Below are positions 38,253 through 53,356 of a DNA stretch of 64,000 nucleotides, piece after piece. The DNA comes from Jezberella montanilacus. GTDB lineage: Bacteria > Pseudomonadota > Gammaproteobacteria > Burkholderiales > Burkholderiaceae_B. The notes under the pieces are model-generated. The model did no database searches and was not told the origin of the DNA. It worked only from the letters and a program-made list of their open reading frames with translations. The stretch covers positions 496,001 to 560,000 of the forward strand of contig NZ_PVTV01000011.1 of the NCBI RefSeq assembly GCF_003003055.1. The letters run 5' to 3'. Position 1 is the first letter of the stretch. Each line of letters begins with the position of its first letter. Both the position numbers and the translations under genes were made by a program.

Positions 38253-38969
38253 TTATACCGTGCGACGGACGAGCATCTCTTTAATCTTGCCAATTGCCTT
38301 CGAGGGGTTCAAGCCTTTAGGGCACACGTCGACGCAATTCATGATGGTGTGGCAACGGAACAAACGGTAGGGATCTTCAAGATTATCTAAGCGCTCGCCA
38401 GTAGCCTGATCGCGACTGTCAGCGATGAAGCGATAGGCTTGAAGCAAACCAGCGGGACCAACAAATTTGTCTGGATTCCACCAAAACGACGGGCACGAGG
38501 TCGAGCAACAGGCGCACAAAATGCACTCGTACAGACCATCAAGCTCTTCGCGCGCCTCTGGCGATTGCAGACGCTCTTTCTCTGGTGGTGGTGTGTCGTT
38601 AATCAGATAAGGATGAACCGAATGATACTGATTGAAGAAGTGTGTCATGTCGACCACCAGATCACGGATCACCGGGAGACCTGGCAATGGACGTAAGACC
38701 ACTGGCTCTTTCAATTCGAGCATGTTGGTCGTGCACGCCAAACCATTTTTTCCGTTGATATTCATCGCGTCAGATCCACAGACGCCTTCGCGACAAGACC
38801 GACGCAAAGTCAATGAATCATCCACGTCCAGTTTGATCCGCTGCAAAGCATCAAGCAACATCTTATCAGTAGGCTGCAGTTCAACTTCGAGTTTTTGCAT
38901 GTAAGGACGCTCATCCTTGTCAGGATCGTAGCGATAGATTTCAAACTTAACAATACGCTTTGTGCTCAT
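38253..38969 (-). CDS. sdhB: Succinate dehydrogenase iron-sulfur subunit
   Basis: This 238-residue subunit holds three clusters: 2Fe-2S ligands in [11 protein letters not shown] plus NGLACTT in the N-terminal ferredoxin domain, and the 4Fe-4S and 3Fe-4S ligands in [12 protein letters not shown] and [17 protein letters not shown]. It passes electrons from SdhA FAD to quinone at the SdhCD membrane anchor. It follows sdhA by 21 bases; order sdhC-sdhD-sdhA-sdhB is standard. Confidence 0.97.
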
Positions 38970-38990: not shown

Positions 38991-40769
38991 TTAGAATGTG
39001 CGGACTTTAGGCGGGAAACTCTCAACCGTCAGGGGTTTCAAGTTCACTGGCTTGTAATCCAAGCGGTTGCCTTCCGAGTACCACAAGGTGTGCTTAATCC
39101 AGTTCTCGTCGTCACGCTCGGGGTGGTCATCGAGTGCATGAGCACCTCGGCTTTCCGTACGAGCTGCTGCTGAGTGAATCGTGGAACGAGCCACTTCAAT
39201 CATATTAGACAACTCGAGCGCTTCAATACGAGCCGTGTTGAAGACTTTCGATTTGTCTTTGAACGCAATGTTATCCACTTTGTCGGCCAAAGCATCGATC
39301 TTGGTCACGCCTTCTTTGAGCGATGCAATGGTGCGGAACACACCGCAATGTTTTTGCATCGCATTGCGGATTTCGTTGCCAACCGCTTGAGTTTTCTCGC
39401 CATCGGTTCTGGTCTCCAGGGCATCAACCCGAGCCAGCGAGAAGTCTACTGACTCTTGCGGCAATGGTTGGTGATGATGCTGTTTCTCTGGATGAGCGTT
39501 GACAATATGATTGCCAGCTGCCCGACCAAATACGATTAGATCAAGCAGTGAGTTTGTACCCAGACGATTTGCGCCATGAACCGAAGTCGCCGAGCACTCG
39601 CCGATTGCGTAAAGTCCGTTTACAACGTTGAGTTCACCGTTTGCCCAATTGGTAACCTGACCGTTAATGTTGGTCGGGATACCGCCCATTTGATAGTGAA
39701 TCGTTGGGACAACAGGTATCGGCTCTTTAGTCGCATCGACGTTCGCAAATTTATGACCGATTTCAAGAATCGAAGGCAACCGTTTGTTGATGACATCTGA
39801 ACCAAGATGATCCAGTTTGAGATGGACGTAGGCGCCATCAGGGCCGCAACCACGGCCTTCTTTAATTTCTTGATCCATACACCGCGAGATAAAGTCGCGA
39901 GGAGCAAGATCTTTCATCGTTGGCGCATAGCGCTCCATGAAGCGCTCACCATCTTTGTTAAGCAGGATACCGCCTTCACCCCGAACACCCTCAGTGATCA
40001 ACACACCTGCACCAGCCACACCGGTTGGGTGAAACTGCCAGAACTCCATGTCCATCATGGGGATACCGGCGCGTGCAGCCATGCCCATACCGTCGCCGGT
40101 ATTGATGAAGGCATTGGTTGATGCGGCCCAAATACGACCAGCACCGCCCGTGGCGATCACGGTTGTCTTGGCTTCAAAAATAAAGATTTCGCCGGTTTCC
40201 ATTTCGAGAGCCGTGACACCCAGAACATCACCGGCTTCGTTGCGAAGCAAATCCAGCGCCATCCACTCGACAAAGAATTGTGTACGTGATGCAACGTTGC
40301 GTTGATACAGGGTATGCAGCAAGGCATGGCCTGTCCGGTCGGCGGCAGCACAGGCTCGCTGAACGGGCTTCTCGCCAAAGTTGGCGCTGTGGCCACCAAA
40401 AGGACGCTGATAAATTGTGCCATCCGGATTACGATCAAACGGCATACCGAAGTGTTCAAGCTCATATACGGCATTAGGCGCTTCGCGACACATGAATTCG
40501 ATCGCGTCCTGATCACCCAACCAGTCTGAACCTTTGACCGTGTCATACATATGCCACAACCATTTGTCCTCGCTCATATTGCCCAGCGATGCGCCAATGC
40601 CACCTTGTGCGGCAACCGTGTGCGAACGGGTTGGGAATACTTTTGACAGTACTGCGACTGATAAACCTGCGTTGGCAAGCTGGAGAGAGCAGCGCATGCC
40701 AGCACCGCCGGCACCCACAACCACCACATCAAACTGGCGGCGCGGAATAGAAGATTTGATAGCAACCAC
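38991..40769 (-). CDS. sdhA: Succinate dehydrogenase flavoprotein subunit
   Basis: This 592-residue flavoprotein oxidises succinate to fumarate. It has the FAD-binding VVVGAGGAGMRCSLQLA, the covalent-FAD His in SHTVAAQGGIGASLGN, the catalytic HPTGVAGAGVLITEGVRGEGGIL region with the active-site Arg, and GLYAIGECSATSVHGANRLGTNSLLDLIVFGR-type FAD contacts near residue 385. It starts 3 bases after the sdhD stop and is complete. Confidence 0.97.
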   Translation of the reverse strand: MVAIKSSIPRRQFDVVVVGAGGAGMRCSLQLANAGLSVAVLSKVFPTRSHTVAAQGGIGASLGNMSEDKWLWHMYDTVKGSDWLGDQDAIEFMCREAPNAVYELEHFGMPFDRNPDGTIYQRPFGGHSANFGEKPVQRACAAADRTGHALLHTLYQRNVASRTQFFVEWMALDLLRNEAGDVLGVTALEMETGEIFIFEAKTTVIATGGAGRIWAASTNAFINTGDGMGMAARAGIPMMDMEFWQFHPTGVAGAGVLITEGVRGEGGILLNKDGERFMERYAPTMKDLAPRDFISRCMDQEIKEGRGCGPDGAYVHLKLDHLGSDVINKRLPSILEIGHKFANVDATKEPIPVVPTIHYQMGGIPTNINGQVTNWANGELNVVNGLYAIGECSATSVHGANRLGTNSLLDLIVFGRAAGNHIVNAHPEKQHHHQPLPQESVDFSLARVDALETRTDGEKTQAVGNEIRNAMQKHCGVFRTIASLKEGVTKIDALADKVDNIAFKDKSKVFNTARIEALELSNMIEVARSTIHSAAARTESRGAHALDDHPERDDENWIKHTLWYSEGNRLDYKPVNLKPLTVESFPPKVRTF

Positions 40770-40772
40770 GGC

Positions 40773-41156
40773 TTAGTTTCTCCAGAGGATATTGATAAAG
40801 TACACGACTGATCCGACAAGCCACAGCAAAGTCATGACCATCAAAAACAGACGCACACCCACGTGACCGACATAATCCATCCAGATGTCGCGAACGCCAA
40901 TCCAGGCGTGCCAGGCAAGCGAGATCATCGTGAGCGACCCCAAGATCTGCCCGATAGGCATCATCACAACGGTGAAAGTAAACAGGTTGTGCCAGCCCTG
41001 GTAAGTGAAGCCAGACATCGTGAGGATGCCAACCAACAAAACCAGTGTGTACACAGCCATAATGATCGCGGTCACACGTTGAGCCAAATACTCAAAGGTG
41101 CCGTAATGCGCGCCTACAACAAGGCGCTTGGTGCCGATTTTTTCATTTAACGCCAT
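40773..41156 (-). CDS. sdhD: Succinate dehydrogenase membrane anchor subunit
   Basis: This 127-residue protein has three membrane helices (beginning near RVTAIIMAVYTLVLLVG, TFTVVMMPIGQILGSLTMI and LFLMVMTLLWLVGSVVYF). The segment HAWIGVRDIWMDYV holds the expected haem-ligand His and the quinone-site Asp-Tyr. With SdhC it binds haem b and ubiquinone. It lies three bases from sdhA and three from sdhC. Confidence 0.94.
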   Translation of the reverse strand: MALNEKIGTKRLVVGAHYGTFEYLAQRVTAIIMAVYTLVLLVGILTMSGFTYQGWHNLFTFTVVMMPIGQILGSLTMISLAWHAWIGVRDIWMDYVGHVGVRLFLMVMTLLWLVGSVVYFINILWRN

Positions 41157-41159
41157 GAT

Positions 41160-41573
41160 TTACCAAGCTCCGAATAATTTGAGCGCAAACACAAGCGTCA
41201 AGCCAAGGCTGACACCCATCACGATCCCAGCGCTTTTTTGAGCTGAATGCTTATCCATACCGATGTGCAGATCGAGCACGAGGTAACGAATGCCCGCACA
41301 GAAATGGTGCAAATAGCCCCAGATGAATGCCAGCAGTATCAGTTTGACAATCACGTAGCTCGTTGCTGCTGAGATCAGGTTGTATCCAGCCTCAGAAGTA
41401 AAGCTCATCGCGAACAACCCAATCAGCACCGGCAAAGCCAGAAACAGCAAGGCGCCACTGGCACGATGCAGAATCGACACTTTGCCTGCTAACGGCAGGC
41501 GATAGGCAAAGAGAATCTGAGGAACACTGATATTTTTGAACTGCGGGCGCGGTTTTTGCGCTGTATCTGACAT
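41160..41573 (-). CDS. sdhC: Succinate dehydrogenase cytochrome b556 subunit
   Basis: This 137-residue protein has three membrane helices. SILHRASGALLF carries the conserved Ser/Arg quinone-site residues and LHHFCAGIRYLVLDLH the haem-ligand His. It is the first gene of sdhCDAB-sdhE-gltA. The GntR gene ends 172 bases upstream in the same direction, so the operon may be read from gntR as well as from its own promoter. Confidence 0.94.
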   Translation of the reverse strand: MSDTAQKPRPQFKNISVPQILFAYRLPLAGKVSILHRASGALLFLALPVLIGLFAMSFTSEAGYNLISAATSYVIVKLILLAFIWGYLHHFCAGIRYLVLDLHIGMDKHSAQKSAGIVMGVSLGLTLVFALKLFGAW

Positions 41574-41745: not shown

Positions 41746-42519
41746 TCAAATCAAACTATTCCTGTAGTAATAATGATCGGTCAGGTAGTGACCAGTTCGC
41801 AGTTCTACTGGCCGGTCGGCGTAAGTATACGAAATTCGATCCACCTTCAATAACGGCTTGTCTGGCTCGATTCCCAACAAAGTTGAAAACTCGGTTGTGG
41901 CAGCAACAGCAGTCAGTTTTTCGTCGGCACGAACCATGTTCACCCCGAATTTTGACTCAAGAAGCCCGTACAAAGGCCCTACATAAGATGTGAGTATGTC
42001 TGCAGACAGGCCATTGAAGAGCGCGGCCGGCAGGAAAATATCGTCAACGACTGCCGCTTTACCAGCAAAAGACAACACTCGTCTGATCGCAATCACCGAA
42101 TCGCCTGCCTTTAAGCCTAGAGACCGAGCCATTTCAGCACTCGCTCGTTGGCGTTTGCAACTCAACACTTTACTTTGAGGTGGCTGCTGTTCGCCACTAT
42201 TTGGGGCCAACCGCAAAAACCTGAACCGAATCTTAGGTTCGTGGTGGGTCGCAACGAAGGTACCTTTTCCTTGTCGTCTGACAAGAAGATGTTCAGCCGC
42301 GAGCTCATCGACCGCTTTGCGAACCGTACCTTGGCTGACTTGAAAACGAGTAGCCAGCTCTATCTCACTGGGAATAGCTTCGCCAGGCTTCCACTCGCCC
42401 TCATCCAACGCGCGAACCAGCATGCCTTTAATCTGCTGATAAAGCGGGCTGAATGCTGCGGTAGGCTTAGCGATACTTCCGAGGAGACGACTAGCGGTAT
42501 CGGACATAAACTTGGTCAT
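41746..42519 (-). CDS. GntR family regulator, HutC subfamily (UTRA domain); candidate TCA-cycle regulator
   Basis: This protein of about 257 residues has an N-terminal winged helix of the GntR type (LYQQIKGMLVRAL, GEAIPSEIELATRFQVSQGTVRKA and the RRQGKGTFV wing, about residues 15-85) and a C-terminal UTRA effector-binding domain typical of HutC members (SVIAIRRVL...FLPAALFNGL...DRISYTYADRPVELR). ATG 42519 and ATG 42507 are both possible starts. It is divergent from mdh and just upstream of sdhCDAB. A palindromic operator lies in the divergent region, and a second copy lies before acnB, so control of TCA genes in response to a small carboxylate is inferred. Confidence 0.88.
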   Translation of the reverse strand: MTKFMSDTASRLLGSIAKPTAAFSPLYQQIKGMLVRALDEGEWKPGEAIPSEIELATRFQVSQGTVRKAVDELAAEHLLVRRQGKGTFVATHHEPKIRFRFLRLAPNSGEQQPPQSKVLSCKRQRASAEMARSLGLKAGDSVIAIRRVLSFAGKAAVVDDIFLPAALFNGLSADILTSYVGPLYGLLESKFGVNMVRADEKLTAVAATTEFSTLLGIEPDKPLLKVDRISYTYADRPVELRTGHYLTDHYYYRNSLI

Positions 42520-42535
42520 AAGCAACTGTGTGCGT

Positions 42536-42565
42536 ATTGTGGCATACAAGCACTCACTCGTCCAA
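42536..42565 (-). promoter_or_regulatory. Candidate gntR promoter
   Basis: On the minus strand TTGGAC (42565-42560) and CACAAT (42541-42536) are separated by 18 bp and lie shortly before the gntR start. The three-half-site operator begins 8 bp upstream of this -35, so the same site could control both gntR and mdh. Confidence 0.45.
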
Positions 42566-42573
42566 CGCTCTTG

Positions 42574-42596
42574 TGTCTTATATAAGATATAAGATT
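42574..42596. promoter_or_regulatory. Three-half-site operator between gntR and mdh
   Basis: Three adjoining half-sites, TGTCTTAT (42574-42581), ATAAGAT (42582-42588) and ATAAGATT (42589-42596), form a central palindrome TCTTATATAAGA plus a direct copy of the right arm. The GT...AC-like dyad fits GntR-family operators. Nearly the same 23 bp occurs before acnB at 50648-50670. It ends 2 bp before the mdh -35 box. Confidence 0.75.
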
Positions 42597-42598
42597 AA

Positions 42599-42627
42599 TT
42601 GACGTTCATAGAAAATTATCCTAAGAT
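42599..42627 (+). promoter_or_regulatory. Candidate mdh promoter
   Basis: TTGACG (42599-42604) and TAAGAT (42622-42627) are separated by exactly 17 bp, a good sigma-70 pair. It sits about 110 bases before the mdh ATG and directly downstream of the operator, a geometry repeated at acnB. Confidence 0.65.
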
Positions 42628-42735
42628 CATGCTCGATTTCAATGAAGGTCGATACAGCTGATTGAGCCGAATAAAAAAGCTAAACTCGGTTTCCAAACTA
42701 TTGAATTCCCCTAAACAGCCCTCTCGGAGATTGTT

Positions 42736-43725
42736 ATGTCCAAACCCGCCATCCGCGTCGCGGTAACCGGTGCCGCCGGCCAGATCGGTTACGCCCTGCT
42801 GTTCCGTATTGCATCCGGCGAGATGCTCGGTAAAGATCAACCCGTTATTTTGCAACTGCTTGAAATCCCCGATGAAAAGGCGCAAAAAGCGCTGAAAGGC
42901 GTGATGATGGAGCTCGATGATTGCGCATTCCCTTTGCTGCAATCGATGTCAGCTCACAGCGATCCGCTCGAAGCATTCAAAGATGTTGAAGTCGCTCTGC
43001 TGGTTGGTTCGCGTCCTCGTGGCCCCGGCATGGAGCGCAAAGATCTGCTGACGATCAACGCACAAATTTTCACCGCTCAAGGCAAAGCGCTCAATCAGGT
43101 TGCGAATCGTCAGGTAAAAGTTTTGGTGGTTGGCAATCCTGCCAACACGAATGCTTACATCGCCATGAAATCAGCGCCAGATCTGCCAGCAAAGAACTTC
43201 ACAGCCATGTTGCGGCTGGATCACAACCGCGCCTTGTCGCAACTAGCGACCAAGATGGCCAAACCTGTTGCAGAAATTCAAAAACTGGCCGTTTGGGGTA
43301 ATCACTCGCCAACGATGTACCCTGACTATCGCTTCGCGACAATTGGGGGTCAAAGCGTGCCAGCGATTATCAACGACGAAACCTGGAATCGCGAGACCTT
43401 CTTACCGACCGTCGGTAAGCGAGGTGCTGCAATCATCGAAGCGCGTGGTTTGTCCTCAGCAGCGTCGGCTGCCAATGCCGCCATTGACCACATCCACGAT
43501 TGGGTGCTTGGTACGAATGGTAAGTGGGTCACCATGGGCATCCCTTCTGACGGTACCTACGGCATCCCCGAAGGCATCATGTATGGCGTGCCAGTGACCT
43601 GCGAAGGTGGCGAATACCATCGCGTCACTGGTCTCGAAATCGATGCTTACTCACGTGAACGCATGGACTTGACACTGAAAGAGCTCCTCGAAGAACGCGA
43701 CGGTGTCGCAGACTTACTGAAGTAA
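42736..43725 (+). CDS. mdh: Malate dehydrogenase
   Basis: This 329-residue NAD-dependent malate dehydrogenase interconverts malate and oxaloacetate. It has the [17 protein letters not shown] nucleotide-binding motif, [15 protein letters not shown] (substrate Arg loop), [10 protein letters not shown], and the catalytic-His segment [11 protein letters not shown]. Length and motifs fit the cytosolic-MDH-like type common in betaproteobacteria. GGAG precedes the ATG. It is divergent from gntR and ends in an intrinsic terminator. Confidence 0.96.
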
Positions 43726-43736
43726 ATTTTTAACCT

Positions 43737-43765
43737 AATGGGCCTGTGATCAGGTCCATTTTTTT
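43737..43765 (+). terminator. Intrinsic terminator between mdh and prpB
   Basis: A 10-bp stem AATGGGCCTG / CAGGTCCATT (one G-T wobble) with a TGAT loop is followed by a run of seven T (43759-43765). It lies 11 bases after the mdh stop and only about 6 bases before the prpB ribosome binding site AAAAGGG. Confidence 0.9.
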
Positions 43766-43784
43766 ATTCAAAAAGGGTATGTAC

Positions 43785-44678
43785 ATGTCAACCATCGTCA
43801 CAGCGGGACAGCGCTTCCGTCAAGCACTCGCCGAAGAGCAGCCTTTACAAATCATTGGTACCTTGAACGCTCATCATGCTTTACTTGCCAAACGCGCCGG
43901 CTTCAAAGCCATTTATTTGTCAGGTGGCGGGGTGGCAGCGGGCTCGCTCGGGTTGCCTGATCTTGGCATCAATACGCTAGATGATGTGTTGACAGACGTT
44001 CGTCGTATTACCGACGTCTGTGAGGTGCCGCTGATTGTTGACGTTGACACTGGGTTCGGGCCATCAGCGTTTAACATCGCGCGAACCACCAAGAGTCTGA
44101 TCAAGTTTGGCGCAGCAGGCTTTCATATCGAGGATCAAGTCGGCGCCAAGCGCTGCGGGCATCGCCCCGGCAAGGAGGTCGTATCACTAGAAGAAATGGC
44201 TGATCGCGTCAAGGCGGCCGCCGATGCTCGCACCGACGACAGCTTCTACATCATTGCGCGCACCGACTCGATTGCATCGCATGGTGTTGACCACGCCATC
44301 GACGTTGCCATTGCCTGCGTTGCAGCCGGCGCTGATGCCATTTTCCCCGAAGCTGCGTACGACTTAGCAACCTTCGAAAAATTCCGTAAAGCAGTCAACG
44401 CACCAATTTTGGCCAACATTACTGAATTTGGTAAAACACCACTATTTAGCGTGGCCGATCTCAAACCAACAGGGGTCGAAATGCTGCTCAATCCTTTGTC
44501 GGCTTTCCGGGCTTGCAACAAGGCTGCAGAAACCGTATACGAAGCCGTCCGTCGGGATGGCCATCAAAGAAACGTTATCGATCTGATGCAGACTCGTGAC
44601 GAACTATATGACCGGATTGGCTACCACGAGTTCGAAAGCAAGATCGACAAATTGTTTGCTGCTGGTAAAACAAAATAA
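43785..44678 (+). CDS. prpB: 2-methylisocitrate lyase
   Basis: This 298-residue member of the isocitrate lyase/PEP mutase superfamily splits 2-methylisocitrate into pyruvate and succinate. It has [22 protein letters not shown], the metal-site VDVDTGFG, and the catalytic [18 protein letters not shown] loop with the active-site Cys. ATG 43785 gives the usual MSTIV-type start with AAAAGGG seven bases upstream; ATG 43779 is also possible. It is the first gene of prpB-prpC-acnD-prpF. Confidence 0.95.
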
Positions 44679-44711
44679 CTGACCCAATACATTGACCGAG
44701 GAGTTCTCATC

Positions 44712-45941
44712 ATGGCTACGACAAAAAAAAGTCCCGCTAAAAAAGCCTCTGTGCCTAAAGCTGCAGCGCCTAAAGTTGTTGAGCAAGCAACTGAACAAAC
44801 TGCGCCTGCTTTCAAACCAAAGAAATCGGTTGCGTTGTCTGGTGTGACGGCTGGCAATACAGCTCTGTGTACCGTTGGCCGAAGCGGCAACGACCTGCAC
44901 TACCGTGGTTACGATATTCTCGACTTTGCAGATAGCTGCGAATTCGAAGAGATTGCTCATTTGTTGATTCATGGCAAACTACCTAATAAAGCAGAACTCG
45001 CTGCCTACAAAAAGAAGTTGAAAGCGCTGCGCGGTTTGCCAGCTAATCTGCAGGCAGTACTCGAATCCTTGCCAGCAGCCAGCCACCCCATGGACGTCAT
45101 GCGGACAGCTGCGTCGGTGCTAGGTTGCACGATTCCTGAGAAGGAAGATCACAATATCCCAGGCGCACGTGATATCGCTGACCGCCTGATGGCAAGTCTG
45201 GGCTCTGCCCTGCTCTACTGGTATCACTACAGCCACAATGGTCGCATCATCAATGTCGAGACCGATGATGACAGTATTGGCGGTCATTTCCTGACGCTGT
45301 TGCATGGGCAGAAGCCAAGCGATGAGTGGGTGCGTGCCATGCATACATCGCTGATTCTTTATGCTGAGCACGAGTTCAACGCATCGACCTTTACCTGCCG
45401 CGTCATCGCTGGCACTGGCTCTGATATGTATTCGGCAATTACCGGTGGTATCGGCGCCTTGCGCGGACCCAAACATGGCGGCGCCAACGAAGTTGCTTTC
45501 GAAGTTCAAAAGCGCTACGAAACACCGGATGAAGCTGAAGCAGATATTCGCGCCCGTGTTGAAGCGAAAGAAGTCGTGATCGGTTTTGGTCATCCGGTGT
45601 ACACGATCTCTGATCCTCGCAATCATGTCATCAAGGCCGTCGCGCATCGTCTGTCGAAAACTGCCGGCTCGACAAAAATGTACGACATCGCAGATCGTCT
45701 TGAGGCAGTGATGTGGGATGCGAAAAAAATGTTCGCCAACCTCGACTGGTTCTCGGCCGTGTCGTACCACGTCATGGGTGTGCCTACCGCGATGTTCACG
45801 CCGTTATTCGTGATTGCGCGCACCGCAGGCTGGTCAGCTCACATCATTGAGCAACGGATCGATAATAAGATTATTCGTCCCGCTGCGAATTACACAGGGC
45901 CTGAAAATCAAACTTTCGTGCCGCTTGCCAAGCGTAAATAA
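44712..45941 (+). CDS. prpC: 2-methylcitrate synthase with Lys/Ala-rich N-terminal extension
   Basis: This 409-residue citrate-synthase-fold enzyme condenses propionyl-CoA with oxaloacetate. From [20 protein letters not shown] (about residue 34) onward it follows E. coli-type PrpC closely, including [31 protein letters not shown] and [15 protein letters not shown] with active-site His. Before that is a 33-residue low-complexity Lys/Ala/Pro segment ([16 protein letters not shown] and onward). GAGGAG precedes ATG 44712 at a normal distance, so the extension appears to be translated. Confidence 0.95.
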
Positions 45942-45978
45942 GTCAATACGTCAACACAAGCACACCAATAAAGAAGAC

Positions 45979-48573
45979 ATGAACACAGCAAACCGCAAAC
46001 CCTTGCCAGGGACCAAACTGGATTATTTCGACACGCGTACAGCAGTCGATGCCATCAAGCCTGGCGCATATGACAAACTGCCCTACACATCCCGTGTATT
46101 AGCAGAGAATCTCGTGCGCCGCTGCGATCCTGCATCGTTGACGGCATCATTGACTCAGATTATTGAGCGCAAGCGTGATCTGGATTTTCCGTGGTTTCCG
46201 GCTCGGGTGGTTTGTCATGACATTCTGGGCCAGACTGCTCTAGTCGATTTGGCTGGTCTGCGAGACGCTATTGCCCTGCAAGGCGGTGATCCTGCCTTAG
46301 TCAATCCCGTGGTACCGACTCAGCTTATCGTCGATCATTCCTTAGCGGTCGAATGTGGTGGTTTTGATCCTGACGCCTTTGAAAAAAATCGGGCGATTGA
46401 AGACAGACGAAACGAAGATCGTTTTCATTTCATCAACTGGACTAAAAAAACATTCAAGAATGTCGATGTTATCCCGCCAGGGAACGGCATCATGCACCAG
46501 ATCAATCTAGAGCGCATGTCGCCTGTGGTGCATGCACTCAATGGCGTCGCTTTCCCCGATACTTTGGTCGGAACAGATAGCCACACGCCTCACGTCGATG
46601 CGCTTGGTGTCATCGCTATTGGTGTGGGTGGGCTTGAGGCGGAATCCGTCATGCTGGGCCGCGCGTCCTGGATGCGTTTACCCGACATCATTGGCGTTGA
46701 GCTGACCGGCAAGGTCCAGCCTGGAATTACTGCCACGGATCTCGTGCTTGCCTTGACAGAGTTTCTTCGCAATCAGAAAGTCGTGTCGTCTTATCTGGAG
46801 TTTTATGGTGAAGGTGTCGCTCAGTTGACCTTGGGTGATCGCGCAACCATTTCAAACATGACACCCGAATATGGTGCGACTGCTGCGATGTTCTACATCG
46901 ATCAGCAAACCATCGACTATCTCACCCTGACCGGCCGTGAGGATGAGCAGGTCAAACTGGTTGAGACTTATGCCAAGCAGACAGGTCTCTGGGCGGATAG
47001 CCTCAAGACTGCCGAGTACGAACGTGTGCTGCACTTTGATCTGTCTTCGGTCGTCCGTAATATTGCCGGCCCTTCCAATCCACATCGTCGTGTTTCAACG
47101 TCAGAGCTGGCCGCTCAGGGCATCTCTGGAGTGGTTGAAAACGAGGCAGGGAAAATGCCTGATGGCGCAGTGATCATTGCGGCCATCACTAGCTGCACTA
47201 ACACCAGCAATCCACGCAACGTGATTGCTGCTGGTTTACTGGCTCGCAATGCGAATGCTAAGGGCCTTACCCGTAAACCATGGGTCAAGAGTTCTCTTGC
47301 GCCCGGATCCAAGACTGTTGAGCTTTATCTTGAAGAAGCCAAGCTGATGTCGGAGTTGCAGAAACTTGGCTTTGGCATTGTTGCTTTTGCGTGTACGACC
47401 TGCAATGGAATGAGTGGTGCGCTAGATCCGGTTATCCAACAGGAAATCATCGATCGCGATCTCTATGCGACAGCTGTTTTGTCGGGCAATCGTAACTTCG
47501 ACGGTCGTATCCATCCGTACGCGAAGCAAGCCTTTCTGGCTTCGCCGCCGCTTGTGGTTGCATACGCCATTGCTGGCACGATCCGCTTTGACATCGAGAA
47601 AGATATCCTCGGGCACGACCCCTCCGGCAAGCCAGTGACGCTCAAAGATATTTGGCCAACCGATGAAGAAATCGACGCCATCGTCGCCTCAAGCGTCAAA
47701 CCAGCACAGTTCAGAAAAGTCTACGAACCCATGTTTGCCGCGACCGTTGAGTCTGCAGAGAAATTAAGCCCTCTATATGACTGGCGCGCAGAAAGTACTT
47801 ACATCAGACGCCCTCCTTATTGGGAAGGTGCGTTGGCCGGTGCACGCGCGCTGAAAGGCATGCGTCCGCTTGCGGTACTCGGTGACAACATAACCACCGA
47901 TCATCTCTCCCCGTCAAACGCCATCATGCTCGATAGCGCAGCCGGTGAGTACCTCGCCAAGATGGGTTTGCCCGAAGAGGATTTCAACTCTTACGCTACT
48001 CATCGCGGCGATCATCTCACCGCACAACGAGCGACCTTTGCTAATCCTAAGCTCATCAACGAGATGGCAGTGGTTGATGGCAAGGTTAAACAAGGTTCTT
48101 TGACTCGCATCGAACCGGACGGTCAAGTGACGCGCATGTGGGAAGCAATCGAAACCTATATGGATCGCAAACAACCCCTGATCATTATCGCGGGGGAAGA
48201 CTACGGTCAGGGCTCTTCGCGTGACTGGGCGGCAAAAGGTGTCAGGCTTGCGGGTGTTGAGGCAATCGTTGCTGAAGGTTTCGAGCGTATTCACCGCACC
48301 AATCTTGTTGGGATGGGTGTCCTGCCACTCGAATTCCAAGCGGGTGTGAACCGCAAAACGCTGAACATTGACGGGACCGAAATCTATGACGTGATCGGTG
48401 AGCGCACACCACTTGCTACCTTGACGTTACAAATCACTCGCAAGAACGGTGAGCGTGTCGACGTGCCAGTAACCTGTCGCCTTGATACCGCTGAAGAAGT
48501 ATCTATTTATGAAGCTGGTGGCGTTTTGCAGCGTTTTGCGCAGGATTTTCTTGAATCAACGACTGTGGCTTGA
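45979..48573 (+). CDS. acnD: Fe/S-dependent 2-methylisocitrate dehydratase
   Basis: This 864-residue aconitase-superfamily protein of the AcnA/IRP type has 4Fe-4S ligands in ITSCTNTSNPRN and ACTTCNGMSG, and GEDYGQGSSRDWAAKG in the swivel domain. AcnD dehydrates 2-methylcitrate to the methylaconitate isomer that PrpF then converts. Its placement between prpC and prpF distinguishes it from a housekeeping AcnA. ATG 45979 starts 37 bases after prpC; the frame is open further upstream but overlaps prpC. Confidence 0.95.
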   Translation: MNTANRKPLPGTKLDYFDTRTAVDAIKPGAYDKLPYTSRVLAENLVRRCDPASLTASLTQIIERKRDLDFPWFPARVVCHDILGQTALVDLAGLRDAIALQGGDPALVNPVVPTQLIVDHSLAVECGGFDPDAFEKNRAIEDRRNEDRFHFINWTKKTFKNVDVIPPGNGIMHQINLERMSPVVHALNGVAFPDTLVGTDSHTPHVDALGVIAIGVGGLEAESVMLGRASWMRLPDIIGVELTGKVQPGITATDLVLALTEFLRNQKVVSSYLEFYGEGVAQLTLGDRATISNMTPEYGATAAMFYIDQQTIDYLTLTGREDEQVKLVETYAKQTGLWADSLKTAEYERVLHFDLSSVVRNIAGPSNPHRRVSTSELAAQGISGVVENEAGKMPDGAVIIAAITSCTNTSNPRNVIAAGLLARNANAKGLTRKPWVKSSLAPGSKTVELYLEEAKLMSELQKLGFGIVAFACTTCNGMSGALDPVIQQEIIDRDLYATAVLSGNRNFDGRIHPYAKQAFLASPPLVVAYAIAGTIRFDIEKDILGHDPSGKPVTLKDIWPTDEEIDAIVASSVKPAQFRKVYEPMFAATVESAEKLSPLYDWRAESTYIRRPPYWEGALAGARALKGMRPLAVLGDNITTDHLSPSNAIMLDSAAGEYLAKMGLPEEDFNSYATHRGDHLTAQRATFANPKLINEMAVVDGKVKQGSLTRIEPDGQVTRMWEAIETYMDRKQPLIIIAGEDYGQGSSRDWAAKGVRLAGVEAIVAEGFERIHRTNLVGMGVLPLEFQAGVNRKTLNIDGTEIYDVIGERTPLATLTLQITRKNGERVDVPVTCRLDTAEEVSIYEAGGVLQRFAQDFLESTTVA

Positions 48574-48626
48574 GTTGTTTCGATTTAAATTCGACAGACA
48601 GACACCGTGAAAAAGGACACAATACG

Positions 48627-49817
48627 ATGACTTTCGCTCCTCAAATCAAAGTGCCGGCGACCTACATCCGAGGCGGTACAAGTAAAGGGGTTTTCTTCAA
48701 GCTTCAGGACTTGCCACTTGCCGCGCAAGTCCCGGGCCCGGCCCGCGACGCGTTGTTGATGAGAGTGATTGGCAGTCCAGATCCCTACGGTAAACAAACC
48801 GATGGCATGGGCGCAGCAACCTCAAGCACCAGCAAAACCGTCATCCTGTCTAAGAGCACGCAACCAGATCACGATATCGATTATTTGTTTGGTCAGGTTT
48901 CCATTGATAAGCCTTTTGTCGATTGGAGTGGGAACTGCGGCAATCTGACCGCTGCGGTCGGTCCTTTTGGTATCAGCAACGGCTTGGTTGATCCAAGCCG
49001 TATTCCGCAAAACGGGCACGCTGTCATTCGGATCTGGCAGGCCAATATTGGGAAAACGATCGTTGCGCACGTTCCCATGACTAACGGCGCTGTGCAAGAA
49101 ACTGGTGATTTCGAGCTTGACGGCGTGACATTCCCCGCAGCAGAGGTTCAACTTGAGTTTATGGATCCCGCGGCAGATGAAGAAGGCACTGGTGGGTCTA
49201 TGTTCCCCACTGGCAACGTCGTTGACGAACTCAATGTGCCAGGTGTGGGATCATTCAAAGTAACGATGATCAACGCCGGCATCCCGACCATTTTTGTGAA
49301 CGCTGAAGACATTGGCTATCGCGGGACTGAATTGCAAGACGACATCAACAGCGACCCTAAAGCGCTGACTATGTTTGAAACAATTCGTGCCTACGGTGCC
49401 GTACGGATGGGATTGATCTCTGACATCGCAGAAGCGGCAACAAGACAGCACACCCCAAAAGTTGCTTTCGTTGCCAAACCAGCGGACTACGTGTCCTCAA
49501 GTGGTAAGAACGTATCAACAAGCGATGTAAACGTATTGGTGCGTGCGATGTCAATGGGTAAACTCCATCACGCCATGATGGGCACCGCCGCCGTTGCCAT
49601 CGGCACTGCCGCTGCAATCCCCGGCACCCTTGTTAATCTGGCTGCGGGCGGAGGAAATCTTGAATCGATCCGTTTTGGACATCCCTCTGGTACGTTGCGC
49701 GTGGGCGCACAAGCCAGTCAAGTGGATGGCGAGTGGCAAGTCACTAAAGCAATCATGAGCCGTAGCGCCAGAGTTTTAATGGAGGGCTGGGTCCGGGTTC
49801 CCGGTGATATCCTCTAA
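48627..49817 (+). CDS. prpF: 2-methylaconitate cis-trans isomerase
   Basis: This 396-residue PrpF protein (diaminopimelate-epimerase-like fold) starts shortly before YIRGGTSKGVFF, the family signature, and has DGMGAATSSTSKT, the GNCGNLTAAVGPF motif, and a late GHPSGTLRVGA. It isomerises the AcnD product so that aconitase can rehydrate it to 2-methylisocitrate. AAAAGGA precedes ATG 48627; the frame is open upstream to 48570 but that part overlaps the acnD end. Confidence 0.95.
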   Translation: MTFAPQIKVPATYIRGGTSKGVFFKLQDLPLAAQVPGPARDALLMRVIGSPDPYGKQTDGMGAATSSTSKTVILSKSTQPDHDIDYLFGQVSIDKPFVDWSGNCGNLTAAVGPFGISNGLVDPSRIPQNGHAVIRIWQANIGKTIVAHVPMTNGAVQETGDFELDGVTFPAAEVQLEFMDPAADEEGTGGSMFPTGNVVDELNVPGVGSFKVTMINAGIPTIFVNAEDIGYRGTELQDDINSDPKALTMFETIRAYGAVRMGLISDIAEAATRQHTPKVAFVAKPADYVSSSGKNVSTSDVNVLVRAMSMGKLHHAMMGTAAVAIGTAAAIPGTLVNLAAGGGNLESIRFGHPSGTLRVGAQASQVDGEWQVTKAIMSRSARVLMEGWVRVPGDIL

Positions 49818-49902
49818 AGTCTGTCAGCTTGTGAGCGTTTACCGGCACAGCAGCATTTTTTACACACGTCAGCGTGTCAGTCCACCCACTACCAGAGCCC
49901 TC

Positions 49903-50298
49903 ATGCCAGACACCCTACCTGCCGCCTTGGTCACTTCTTTTAGTCTATTCATTGCCTGCGTTTTTGCGTTTTTTATTGCAGGAGGCTATTTACTGCTCTT
50001 CAAAATTAAGAAAGCGAACCACCTGTTCAAGCATCCTTACCTTGAGGGCCGAGCATACAGCCAGTACCCTCTCAATCTCCGAATGGAGATATTGCTGGAT
50101 TACTTTATCCGACTTGTATTCCCGAAGTCGACCGTCTGGCTTGCCGCCAACTCAAATCGTTTGCTGGCACACGTCAACCCTAAAGCCATTCCGATGGACG
50201 TTAAGTGGCCAATCGTCGGCTTGTGGGGCAGTTGCTTGATCGGCACGCCTGTTATGGTGATCCTTTGGATACTCTTAATGAGTAGCGGCTCAAAATGA
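49903..50298 (+). CDS. Small two-helix membrane protein of unknown function
   Basis: This 131-residue protein is not recognised. It has a first membrane helix at about residues 7-33 (ALVTSFSLFIACVFAFFIAGG), a basic loop with KHPYLEGRAYSQYP and an amphipathic middle containing DYFIRLVFPKSTVWLAAN, then a second helix at about 104-127. It lies 85 bases after prpF and shares ATGA with the acetyltransferase gene downstream, so translational coupling is likely. The link with propionate metabolism is positional only. Confidence 0.65.
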   Translation: MPDTLPAALVTSFSLFIACVFAFFIAGGYLLLFKIKKANHLFKHPYLEGRAYSQYPLNLRMEILLDYFIRLVFPKSTVWLAANSNRLLAHVNPKAIPMDVKWPIVGLWGSCLIGTPVMVILWILLMSSGSK

Positions 50299-50579
50299 AC
50301 CAAGACATCTCACACGACCGACTCAACAGCCGGTTCACCACCCTGGTGGATGGACATGCTTGTGTACTGACTTACACATTAAACGGTAGGACTGCCTCGT
50401 TTGATCACACGGGCGTGCCAGACGCAGTCGGCGGTCGAGGCATCGCAGCCGCCTTGACAAAATTTAGTCTTGATACTGCACGCGACGAAGGCTGGCAGGT
50501 CATTCCCAGGTGTTCCTATGTAGAAATTTACATACGAAGACATCCTGAGTACGCAGATCTGGTATTGGGACAAAACTGA
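50295..50579 (+). CDS. Small GNAT-like N-acetyltransferase (YjdJ/NATD1 type)
   Basis: This 94-residue single-domain protein has the short GNAT fold of the NATD1/YjdJ group: a strand-rich N-terminus, the acetyl-CoA-binding GGRGIAAALTKFSLDTARDEG loop-helix, and the terminal VIPRCSYVEIYIRRHPEYADLV, which is the group's hallmark ending. The substrate is unknown. ATG 50295 overlaps the upstream membrane-protein stop by four bases. Confidence 0.85.
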   Translation: MNQDISHDRLNSRFTTLVDGHACVLTYTLNGRTASFDHTGVPDAVGGRGIAAALTKFSLDTARDEGWQVIPRCSYVEIYIRRHPEYADLVLGQN

Positions 50580-50647
50580 TCTGTTTTTTGTAGAAAACGT
50601 TAAAACCAGCATCTTTTGAGTCGTATGTCATCGAGTGAAAGCATGCA

Positions 50648-50670
50648 AGTCTTATATAAGACATAAGACT
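50648..50670. promoter_or_regulatory. Three-half-site operator upstream of acnB
   Basis: Half-sites AGTCTTAT (50648-50655), ATAAGAC (50656-50662) and ATAAGACT (50663-50670) form a 14-bp perfect palindrome GTCTTATATAAGAC followed by a repeated right arm. It matches the gntR-mdh site in sequence, number of half-sites and spacing, and ends 1 bp before the acnB -35 box. Confidence 0.75.
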
Positions 50671-50671
50671 G

Positions 50672-50700
50672 TTGTTGTATGACAAGCAAAGCACTACAAT
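50672..50700 (+). promoter_or_regulatory. Candidate acnB promoter
   Basis: TTGTTG (50672-50677) and TACAAT (50695-50700) are separated by 17 bp, about 70 bases before the acnB ATG. The operator abuts the -35 as it does at mdh. Confidence 0.65.
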
Positions 50701-50770: not shown

Positions 50771-53356
50771 ATGCTCCAAGCTTATCGTCAACACGTCGCT
50801 GACCGTGCCGCACTTGGTATCCCTCCCCTGCCGCTATCCGCGCAGCAAACTGCTGACCTGATAGAACTGCTCAAGTCGCCACCTGCAGGCGAGGGTGAGG
50901 CGCTGGTTGAACTGATTACTCATCGCGTTCCCGCTGGCGTTGATGACGCGGCCAAGGTGAAGGCATCCTACTTGGCGGCTGTCGCACTTGGCAGCGAAAA
51001 GTGTCCACTGATATCACGTGCTAAGGCCACTGAGCTACTTGGCACCATGCTTGGCGGCTATAACATTGGCCCCATGGTGCAATTGCTAGACGACGCAGAA
51101 GTCGGTCAAGTCGCCGCTGAGGGCCTCAAAAAGACTTTGTTAATGTTTGATGCTTTCCATGACGTCAAAGAGAAAGCAGACAAGGGTAATGCCAACGCGA
51201 AGTCAGTCATGCAAAGCTGGGCTGATGCCGAATGGTTCACCAGTCGCCCTGAAGTTCCCCAGAGCCTCACTATCACGATCTTCAAAGTCACTGGTGAAAC
51301 CAACACCGACGATCTGTCACCGGCGCCAGATGCCTGGAGCCGTCCTGACATCCCTCTGCACGCCTTGGCGATGTTGAAAAATCCACGCCCCGGCATTGAG
51401 CCCCAGGAAGCCGGCAAAATTGGCCCGATTAAATTCATTGAAGATCTGCGCAAGAAAGGCAATCTGGTTGCTTATGTTGGCGATGTGGTTGGTACCGGTT
51501 CATCACGCAAATCAGCAACCAACTCAGTTCTCTGGTTCACTGGCGAGGATATTCCTTTTGTTCCAAACAAGCGCTTCGGTGGCGTGTGTCTGGGTAGCAA
51601 AATTGCCCCGATCTTCTACAACACCATGGAAGACGCAGGTGCCTTGCCAATCGAGCTGGATGTGTCGCAAATGAATATGGGCGATACCGTTGAGCTGCGT
51701 CCGTATGAAGGCAGAGCACTAAAAGACGGCAAAGTGATTGCTGAGTTTTCAGTGAAGTCAGAAGTATTGTTTGACGAAGTGCGTGCGGGTGGCCGTATCC
51801 CGCTGATCGTCGGCCGCGGTTTGACAGGCAAGGCTCGCGAGGCGCTCGGCTTGGCACCTTCAACACTGTTCCGCCTGCCACATGTGCCTGCCGCATCAAG
51901 CAAAGGCTTCACCCTTGCTCAAAAAATGGTTGGTCGAGCTTGTGGCCTGCCTGAAGGTCAAGGCGTTCGCCCTGATACCTATTGCGAACCCAAAATGACC
52001 TCAGTGGGCAGTCAAGATACAACAGGTCCCATGACACGCGACGAGCTCAAAGATTTGGCTTGTTTGGGCTTCTCAGCAGATCTGGTCATGCAGTCTTTCT
52101 GCCATACGGCCGCCTACCCTAAACCAGTCGACGTCAAAACCCACCACACCTTGCCTGATTTCATGAGCAATCGCGGTGGCATTTCGTTACGCCCTGGCGA
52201 TGGCATCATCCACTCATGGCTCAATCGCATGCTGTTGCCTGACACGGTCGGCACCGGTGGCGATTCGCACACCCGCTTCCCAATCGGGATTAGCTTCCCA
52301 GCAGGCTCCGGCTTAGTCGCTTTCGCTGCTGCCACAGGCGTGATGCCCTTGGACATGCCCGAGTCAGTCTTGGTCCGCTTCAAAGGCAAAATGCAACCGG
52401 GTGTAACCTTGCGCGACCTGGTTCACGCTATCCCTCTGTACGCAATCAAAGCTGGCTTGCTTACCGTTGATAAGCAAAACAAAAAGAATATTTTCTCTGG
52501 CCGTATCCTTGAAATCGAAGGTTTGCCCGACCTTAAAGCTGAACAAGCGTTTGAGCTGTCTGATGCATCTGCTGAGCGCTCCGCAGCTGGTTGCACCATC
52601 AAACTCAATAAAGAGCCCATCATCGAGTACATCACCAGCAATATTGTGATGTTGAAGTGGATGATTGCCAGTGGTTATGAGGACGAGCGTAGCATCCGTC
52701 GTCGTATCGCTGCCATGGAAGCCTGGCTGGCCAATCCACAGTTACTGGAAGCTGATGCTGATGCAGAATATGCAGCGGTCATCGAAATCGATCTGGCTGA
52801 GATCCACGAGCCTATCGTTTGCTGCCCGAACGATCCTGACGACGTCAAAACCTTGTCAGAAGTTGCCGGCTCGAAAATCGATGAAGTGTTTATCGGTAGC
52901 TGCATGACCAATATCGGTCACTTCCGCGCCGCATCGAAACTGCTCGAAGGCAAACGCGACATCCCAGTTAAGCTGTGGATCGCACCACCGACCAAAATGG
53001 ATGCTGCAAAACTGACCGAAGAAGGTCACTACGGCGTGTTCGGCTCGTCGGGTGCACGCACAGAGATGCCCGGTTGTTCATTATGTATGGGTAATCAGGC
53101 TCAAGTGCGCGAAGGTGCAACGGTCATGTCAACCAGCACACGTAATTTCCCGAATCGTCTCGGCAAGAATACCAACGTCTACCTCGGTTCAGCAGAGTTA
53201 GCCGCGATTTGTTCGAAGCTTGGTCGCATTCCAACCAAAGTCGAGTACATGGGTGATATGGGTGTCATTGCCGAAAGCGGGGACAAGATTTATCAGTACC
53301 TCAATTTCGACAAGATCGACGACTACAACGACGTGGCTAACGCCATCGACGCTTAG
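50771..53356 (+). CDS. acnB: Aconitate hydratase B
   Basis: This 861-residue bifunctional aconitase of the AcnB type has an N-terminal HEAT-like domain (first ~160 residues), a swivel domain placed before the cluster domains ([20 protein letters not shown]), [21 protein letters not shown], and the 4Fe-4S ligands in [12 protein letters not shown] and [11 protein letters not shown]. It interconverts citrate and isocitrate; AcnB can also hydrate 2-methylaconitate in the methylcitrate cycle. It has its own promoter and operator and ends in a strong terminator. Confidence 0.97.

Follow-up and report, generated by a model that had tools for sequence, protein, structure and literature searches.

Two arrays of short arms, one between gntR and mdh and one before acnB, were found in the analysed stretch of DNA (the window, 64,000 nucleotides). 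Their best reading is as predicted operators of SdhR that serve gntR-sdhCDAB, mdh(-prp) and acnB. Very probably both are operators of the HutC-type GntR protein encoded beside the mdh array (SdhR group), whose dimers would sit on the arms and repress from beside the -35 box. A TCA-cycle regulon under this GntR had been proposed in the initial annotation, and this interpretation is partly supported. The proposed members gntR, mdh and acnB stand. Arrays are found again before mdh and acnB across genera, and their motif is published as that of SdhR (PMC4494728). The assignment offers a likely identity for a plainly annotated GntR gene. It would explain why, in many bacteria of one order, succinate dehydrogenase, malate dehydrogenase, 2-methylcitrate genes and aconitase are under joint control. 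The addition of the present analysis is the variation in arm number and polarity, set against a conserved -35 register.

Arrays, promoters and genes in the window

The earlier observation of matching sites before mdh and acnB is partly confirmed (Table 1). Arrays are present at both places, although the coordinates first given begin one base too soon. The mdh site, described as three-armed, has four arms, since the outer arm with one mismatch had been overlooked; arm parsing gives (2,2) arms with 1 mismatch in total, and (1,2) arms with 0 mismatches before acnB. The 17-bp spaced pairs TTGACG/TAAGAT (mdh) and TTGTTG/TACAAT (acnB) were found where they had been claimed. Between the final ATAAGA arm and the -35 box there are 4 bp at mdh and 3 bp at acnB instead of 1-2 bp, as extra bases had been counted into the arm. 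The putative gntR promoter is a mirror image of the mdh promoter. At acnB the -35 is weak, TTGTTG here and TTGC in many relatives.

Table 1 Positions of genes, arrays and putative promoters in the window
Feature	Position	Strand	Basis and remarks
sdhB	38253..38969	-	NCBIfam NF009225 above cut-off
sdhA	38991..40769	-	Pfam FAD_binding_2 and Succ_DH_flav_C
sdhD ORF	40773..41156	-	named by position only
sdhC ORF	41160..41573	-	named by position; co-directional with gntR; homologues beside gntR in 40/40 loci
gntR (SdhR-type, putative), HutC-subfamily GntR	41746..42507	-	PF00392 GntR wHTH and PF07702 UTRA
putative gntR promoter	42536..42565	-	-35 TTGGAC 42565-42560, 18 bp, -10 CACAAT 42541-42536; read from sequence
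four-arm array TCTTGT-G-TCTTAT-ATAAGA-T-ATAAGA	42569..42594	+	between gntR and mdh; arms 42569-42574 (one mismatch), 42576-42581, 42582-42587, 42589-42594; sequence, kept in relatives
putative mdh promoter	42599..42627	+	-35 TTGACG 42599-42604, 17-bp spacer, -10 TAAGAT 42622-42627; sequence and consensus scan
mdh, malate dehydrogenase	42736..43725	+	NCBIfam NF003916 above cut-off
prpB, prpC, acnD, prpF (2-methylcitrate cycle)	43746..49817	+	downstream of mdh; NCBIfam equivalogs above cut-off
three-arm array TCTTAT-ATAAGA-C-ATAAGA	50650..50668	+	before acnB; arms 50650-50655, 50656-50661, 50663-50668, no mismatch; sequence
putative acnB promoter	50672..50700	+	-35 TTGTTG 50672-50677, 17-bp spacer, -10 TACAAT 50695-50700; read from sequence
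acnB, aconitase B	50771..53356	+	NCBIfam TIGR00117 above cut-off

The consensus promoter scan was of little use here, because 3 matches at mdh (the mdh promoter among them, and one an overlapping minus-strand match) stand against a shuffle mean of 1.5 and the putative acnB promoter was missed; the putative gntR promoter was missed as well.

A HutC-type GntR gene divergent from mdh, as annotated before, is confirmed by the gene layout and by the GntR and UTRA domains, both above the Pfam gathering score. Its putative start is ATG 42507, codon 15 of an ORF opening at TTG 42549, picked from the limits of homologue alignments, the translation and the putative promoter. None of 23 listed NCBIfam models of named regulators reached its curated cut-off with the product; PhnF gave 114.3 bits (cut-off 156.8) and his_ut_repres 109.4 (cut-off 220).

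Arm arrangement and mode of control

Arm parsing covered 48 of 80 gntR-mdh regions, roughly one for each genus, g24 and g34 being represented more often; the remaining 32 carry arrays with at most 1 mismatch. The acnB set comprised 53 regions of relatives and the window itself. With up to 1 mismatch per arm, at least three arms were present in 40/48 gntR-mdh regions and 48/54 acnB upstream regions. Locus L065 gave no array, and at L113 (G032, GntR present) none was parsed before acnB. With -35 motifs picked after inspection of the alignments, TTGAC lies 3-4 bp past the array on the mdh side in 36/47 parsed loci (3 bp in 26, 4 bp in 10), and the acnB -35 lies 3 bp past it in 35/51 parsed sites. 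On the gntR side TTGGAC, TTAGAC or TTCGAC was found 2-3 bp outside the array in 25/47 parsed loci and none of them within 20 bp in 21. Arm number and polarity differ by target and lineage, and the promoter-facing edge is 3-4 bp from the -35 in most loci.

Of 25 order-level gntR regions without a strict array, 13 keep the two-arm core only and 4 show none (mononucleotide shuffles, 60 per region). At the gntR-mdh site of genus g34 two direct arms are kept and the palindrome is broken in 5/5 loci, which counts against a strict core-palindrome rule. In relatives, the core before acnA overlaps a TATAAG located 15-17 bp past a TTGAC box in 7/8 loci; this geometry is ambiguous, because another -10-like box can be read further downstream.

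A dimer would bind the central palindrome TCTTATATAAGA, and further subunits would occupy the outer arms at 7-bp steps. The four-arm (gntR/mdh) and three-arm (acnB) arrays would then each hold about two dimers. The array edge lies 3-4 bp from the -35 box at each of gntR-sdhCDAB, mdh(-prpBC-acnD-prpF) and acnB, and protein bound at these promoters would stand in the way of RNA polymerase; release would follow when a small ligand occupies the UTRA domain. In this way the TCA and 2-methylcitrate cycles would respond together, and the regulator would control itself. Repression next to the -35 by more than one dimer per array appears the most likely mode. The near-consensus hexamers TTGACG (mdh) and TACAAT (acnB) would be expected of a repressed promoter more than of one that depends on an activator, and the acnA core overlapping TATAAG in relatives would also suit repression.

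Against repression, the array flanks the -35 and does not cover the promoter, and the near-fixed offset would fit an activator as well. The same regulator might use the same operators to activate mdh and acnB by contact with RNA polymerase beside the -35, and perhaps repress itself or acnA. We consider this rather unlikely. The near-constant offsets counted above and the weak acnB -35 speak for activation, but the acnB -10 and the mdh -35 are close to consensus and at acnA the core possibly overlaps the -10. Furthermore, HutC-subfamily regulators are mostly known as repressors, and this usual role argues against an activator.

We tentatively suggest a further reading, of which we are far from convinced. 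SdhR-type proteins might line up on 7-bp units as chains of differing length, with the promoter end fixed at about 3 bp from the -35 and arms added or removed at the far end or strand-swapped (2+2, 1+2, 2+1, 1+3, 1+1). How strongly each target is controlled would depend on its number of arms, and the two-arm palindrome would be ancestral. The natural series of arm arrangements could serve to test how neighbouring half-sites are shared between GntR dimers.

Probable assignment to the SdhR group and linkage of array and GntR

The pair of motif and regulator is already published, as a prediction. SdhR is listed in the HutC subfamily with the operator TCTTATGTCTTATATAAGACATAAGA (Suvorova, Korostelev and Gelfand 2015, PMC4494728), and Suvorova, Ravcheev and Gelfand 2012 is cited there. 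The mdh array fits TCTTATGTCTTATATAAGACATAAGA in its four arms with one arm mismatch; in the acnB array the distal arm is missing, so that this operator is three-armed, unlike the one listed. In common with SdhR as described in PMC4494728, a HutC-type GntR protein is paired here with a non-canonical palindrome of extra symmetry. The gntR gene is linked to succinate dehydrogenase genes in the window, and the name of the SdhR group suggests such linkage as its defining trait. From motif and subfamily, the gntR product is probably a member of this group. SdhR targets, taxa, arm-number variation and -35 register are not given in the available part of PMC4494728; the 2012 source may contain them. 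A literature search returned the motif together with the regulator name only from PMC4494728. One motif fragment each occurs in PMC6421274 and PMC6616114 which, judging by their titles, treat other subjects.

The GT...AC dyad had been taken to fit GntR regulators, which is not supported. In most, not all, HutC sites GT and AC are 4 nt apart (PMC4494728), whereas the core dyad here is GT-N10-AC. A canonical HutC operator (GT-N4-AC) was rejected at this spacing of 10. The 4-nt spacing is no strict HutC requirement, because exceptions including SdhR are named in PMC4494728.

Relatives do carry the array, so the proposed regulon is not refuted from this side. The 19-bp pattern TCTTATATAAGAYATAAGA (at most 1 mismatch) is present in 134/151 family genomes and its reversed control in 0/151, which makes it informative. 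Across genera the arrays recur at orthologous places before mdh and acnB. The order gntR, sdhC and sdhA, divergent from mdh, was found in 40/40 family loci (38 genera; three loci from g34; two more genera, L132 and L133, with shorter stretches, left out). Array and strong GntR match (E 1.2e-74 or better) coincide in 130 of the 151 family genomes and are jointly absent in 10. GntR only was seen in 7, six of genus g34 and G027, which lack the strict array, and array only in 4 (G069, G079, G099, G133), all fragmented assemblies 83-95% complete.

Within the order 87/200 genomes bear the array. Homologues of the window GntR occur in 85 of these 87, in 59 of them at E<=1e-60 and in a further 26 at E<=1e-25. 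Since relatedness makes the genomes dependent on one another, the Fisher p at E<=1e-60 is descriptive only. Array and GntR lie within 500 bp in 50 of the 59 genomes with both at E<=1e-60. By coordinate comparison, an array is located no more than about 140 bp from each of the 26 further homologues (32-48% identity). The array adjoins GntR also in 2 genomes outside the order. For the reversed control there was one match among the 200 order genomes and one among 185 genomes of the class.

Binding of the arrays by some other, unlinked regulator, with the GntR gene a mere neighbour, is very unlikely. The GT...AC spacing unlike usual HutC sites and the four array-only family genomes would agree with it, but array and GntR are neighbours at identities as low as 32% in several families within the order, and also outside it, both are absent together in 10 family genomes, and the published assignment is to SdhR.

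The arrays are real and more than chance. In the window, a three-arm scan (at most 1 mismatch per arm) matched at these two places only, in line with the initial annotation, and 1 of 200 dinucleotide-preserving window shuffles gave a match. The 14-bp core with up to 2 mismatches gave 4 strand matches at the 2 places, compared with a mean of 0.21 in shuffles, of which 1 in 100 reached 4. With up to 1 mismatch it occurs in the whole genome at these two places only; as the reversed control also gives 3 strand matches there, this short pattern alone is uninformative. An additional array between gntR and sdhC was rejected, since the window contains the 12-bp core (up to 2 mismatches) at no third place. 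Chance AT-rich or promoter-derived repeats, which the likeness of the unit TATAAGA to a -10 box and the control matches of the 14-bp pattern might suggest, are a practically negligible explanation, already contradicted by the 151-genome control and the shuffles and at odds with conservation at orthologous places.

Extent of the proposed regulon and related systems

By operon position the regulon would extend to sdhCDAB. Close spacing suggests that prpB-prpC-acnD-prpF possibly belong to the mdh transcript. In some relatives acnA, aceA or acnD are predicted as extra targets. As a target in this genome acnA was rejected, its query matching acnD only (44% identity); the aceA query gave no match in this genome at E<=1e-50 in a search run without a positive control.

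For NanR of E. coli, a GntR-family regulator, cooperative binding of several dimers to a short repeat array is described in PMC8012715. The NanR operator (GGTATA)3 differs by direct repeats without inverted core and by its ligand (PMC8012715); NanR is listed among the FadR/HutC exceptions (PMC4494728). DasR and YvoA/NagR of the HutC subfamily, matched as full-length structures, share the two-domain layout of the gntR product, but their similarity to it is low (E about 1e-18), and for most sites of their subfamily the 4-nt GT-AC spacing is given (PMC4494728), compared with 10 here. The chain of PDB 3cnv (putative GntR-family regulator, 162 residues; listed without ligand name) comprises the effector domain only and matches residues 107-266 of the gntR product with E 4.8e-58. 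By this similarity, 3cnv would be the solved effector domain of a close homologue.

Arrays and putative promoters in the window

Arrays of the 6-bp arms TCTTAT (left) and ATAAGA (right) precede mdh and acnB (table). The initial annotation described three arms at both sites, which holds for acnB; at mdh a further, distal arm (TCTTGT, one mismatch) brings the number to four. The hexamers and 17-bp spacers of the two proposed promoters were confirmed in the sequence. The statement that the window has no further three-unit array was also borne out, as a scan allowing one mismatch per arm returned just the mdh and acnB places, and 1 of 200 dinucleotide shuffles of the window gave a match. The 14-bp core was found nowhere else in the 3.16-Mb genome (≤1 mismatch). 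Its reversed control gave 3 strand matches there at the same stringency, so conservation and the longer pattern carry the weight. With a putative gntR promoter in mirror image to that of mdh, the mdh array lies between two outward promoters.

Arrays and putative promoters beside mdh and acnB
Feature	Position	Strand	Description
mdh array	42569-42594	+	four arms, TCTTGT G TCTTAT ATAAGA T ATAAGA, read from sequence
Putative mdh promoter	42599-42627	+	TTGACG, 17 bp, TAAGAT; 4 bp beyond last arm
Putative gntR promoter		-	TTGGAC, 18 bp, CACAAT; other side of mdh array, -35 3 bp off distal arm
acnB array	50650-50668	+	three arms, TCTTAT ATAAGA C ATAAGA, read from sequence
Putative acnB promoter	50672-50700	+	TTGTTG, 17 bp, TACAAT; 3 bp beyond last arm

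Downstream of gntR, on the minus strand, come the ORFs sdhC, sdhD, sdhA and sdhB, sdhC and sdhD being named from position. The plus strand carries mdh, prpB, prpC, acnD and prpF in this order, and after them acnB, preceded by a separate array. An ORF of 94 aa (50295-50579) sits after the prp genes and ahead of acnB; its sequence is reminiscent of small GNAT acetyltransferases. The GntR protein contains GntR and UTRA domains and falls below every NCBIfam cut-off. Its nearest solved relative is the effector domain PDB 3cnv (E 4.8e-58); a ligand, if bound there, might hint at the signal of this regulator. Candidate gntR starts span 42507-42549 on the minus strand. The longest ORF begins at TTG 42549. 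This codon lies ahead of the putative -10, before the transcript would begin, and a start at ATG 42519 (codon 11) or ATG 42507 (codon 15) is more likely. Internal stop codons were found in the gntR match of locus L053 (genome G014), with similar flags for G196, G239, G306 and G108. The alignments begin ahead of the likely start codon, so the stops may sit upstream of the gene. G014 has the arrays before mdh and acnB.

Conservation of array and regulator

A search among relatives had been proposed as a check on the array. Of 151 family genomes, 134 contain the pattern TCTTATATAAGAYATAAGA (≤1 mismatch) and none contains its reversal. The GntR protein matched in 143 of the 151 at E≤0.001, strongly in 137 (E 1.2e-74 or better); the 6 weak matches (E 7e-8 to 2e-18) are probably paralogues. 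Array and strong match occurred together in 130 genomes. Seven had the strong match without the pattern (six of genus g34, and G027), and four the array without a strong match (G069, G079, G099, G133; fragmented assemblies, 83-95% complete). Neither was found in ten, six of them genomes of genus g8 of roughly 0.8 Mb, the others G039, G023, G058 and G149. In 40 of 40 loci (38 genera; stretches up to 20 kb) sdhC and sdhA follow gntR on the same strand with mdh divergent; prpB lies within 32 and acnB within 21 of these stretches.

Among 200 order genomes, the array was detected in 87 (control pattern once), GntR at E≤1e-60 in 85 and both in 59 (Fisher p 2.5e-10, shared ancestry ignored), at most 500 bp apart in 50 of the 59. 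At E≤1e-25 a GntR homologue was present in 26 of the 28 array-only genomes, each time adjoining an array by coordinates; G294 and G320 have none at this threshold. For 25 of the 26 GntR-only genomes the upstream region was scanned, the last (G034) being the g34 locus L072. At least two arms were present in 21 of 25, a score reached by 0 of 60 shuffles each; three genomes of genus g47 and G296 showed no such array. The inverted core occurred in 19 of the 25, with nothing beyond it in 13. As many of these regions keep just the core, the palindrome TCTTATATAAGA is the widest common part, and the outer arms are additions or losses. Of 185 genomes sampled from the class, 5 matched (control once), two of them within the order, including the window's own. 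A GntR homologue adjoins the array in G503 and G486, and none was found in G383 at E≤1e-10.

Arm arrangement and promoter register

Regions were chosen by gene position, not by motif: 48 gntR-mdh regions (of 80 at hand) and 54 acnB upstream regions, window included. At least three arms were found in 40 mdh regions (two in 7, none in 1) and 48 acnB regions (two in 3, none in 3). The (left, right) arrangements before mdh were (2,2) in 29, (1,2) in 5, (2,0) in 5, (1,3) in 3 and five others once each; before acnB they were (1,2) in 26, (2,2) in 10, (2,1) in 9, (1,3) in 3 and (1,1) in 3. Among 47 mdh arrays the -35 starts 3 bp past the last arm in 26 and 4 bp past it in 10, and no -35 was identified in 7; among 51 acnB arrays the distance is 3 bp in 35, and 5 have no identified -35. 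In loci L084, L086, L110 and L112 the right outer arm is missing, the left one is present and the core ends 3 bp from the -35; an extra right arm in L095, L096 and L118 ends likewise. Thus, the promoter-facing edge is nearly fixed and the remainder variable. This is the only part which we did not find described in the literature examined.

Some loci speak against a simple rule. In g34 all five mdh regions (L072, L073, L074, L137, L139) keep two direct left TCTTAT arms with a damaged right half, and GntR has 52-55% identity. Four of its five acnB regions (L115-L117, L138, L140) carry an altered operator TCCTATATCATATATAAGA, which arm parsing also recovered in L115; a change of specificity is possible. 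By arm parsing the array is absent from L065 (G027). It is also absent from the acnB region L113 of G032, although this genome has GntR, and from the acnB regions L101 (G023) and L102 (G058), whose genomes lack the pattern anywhere and gave weak GntR matches only (3.0e-13 and 6.1e-13).

Regulator, mode of action and further targets

The proposed outline, a GntR regulator with TCA-cycle operators, was a correct guess: the sites are real, well conserved and in print as SdhR. For SdhR, assigned to the HutC subfamily, Suvorova, Korostelev and Gelfand (2015, PMC4494728) give a 'palindrome with additional symmetry TCTTATGTCTTATATAAGACATAAGA' and refer to earlier work from 2012 on the catabolism of malonate and propionate. 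Hence, the regulator-operator pair is already known, as a prediction. The same study notes that many GntR sites have additional, weaker half-sites at 7-12 nt from their centre, and suggests further subunits. NanR shows that one short array of repeats can be shared by GntR dimers (PMC8012715).

The preferred reading is a self-controlling repressor, which would bind the core as a dimer, with added subunits on the array, and would sit beside the -35 boxes. Given that the regulator binds here, we regard repression as fairly probable, because the hexamers are near consensus, repression is the usual habit of the HutC subfamily, and, at 7 of 8 acnA loci of relatives, the core overlaps a TATAAG that follows a TTGAC box at 15-17 bp (spacings measured by eye). 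The acnA argument is ambiguous, since a further -10-like box lies downstream. Activation by the same regulator has its strongest argument in the near-fixed offset between array and -35, but is less likely in view of these three points.

Twenty further loci from relatives were hand-picked among the matches listed for the family pattern, so that proportions are meaningless. Eight of them have the array before acnA, ten before aceA (isocitrate lyase) and one before acnD, and in L151 the core was not found by the script's pattern. Five proteins were identified by family scans, the others by matching N-termini. At E≤1e-50 the homology searches for acnA and aceA in the window's genome found acnD only, so its regulon may comprise no more than the two sites. 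At the aceA loci L144-L150, L152, L156 and L157 a GC-richer stretch separates the array from a -10-like box. Several of them share a recurring TGC..(T/C)GCAGCA-like word, not fitting plain -35/-10 spacing, which is perhaps a second regulator site.
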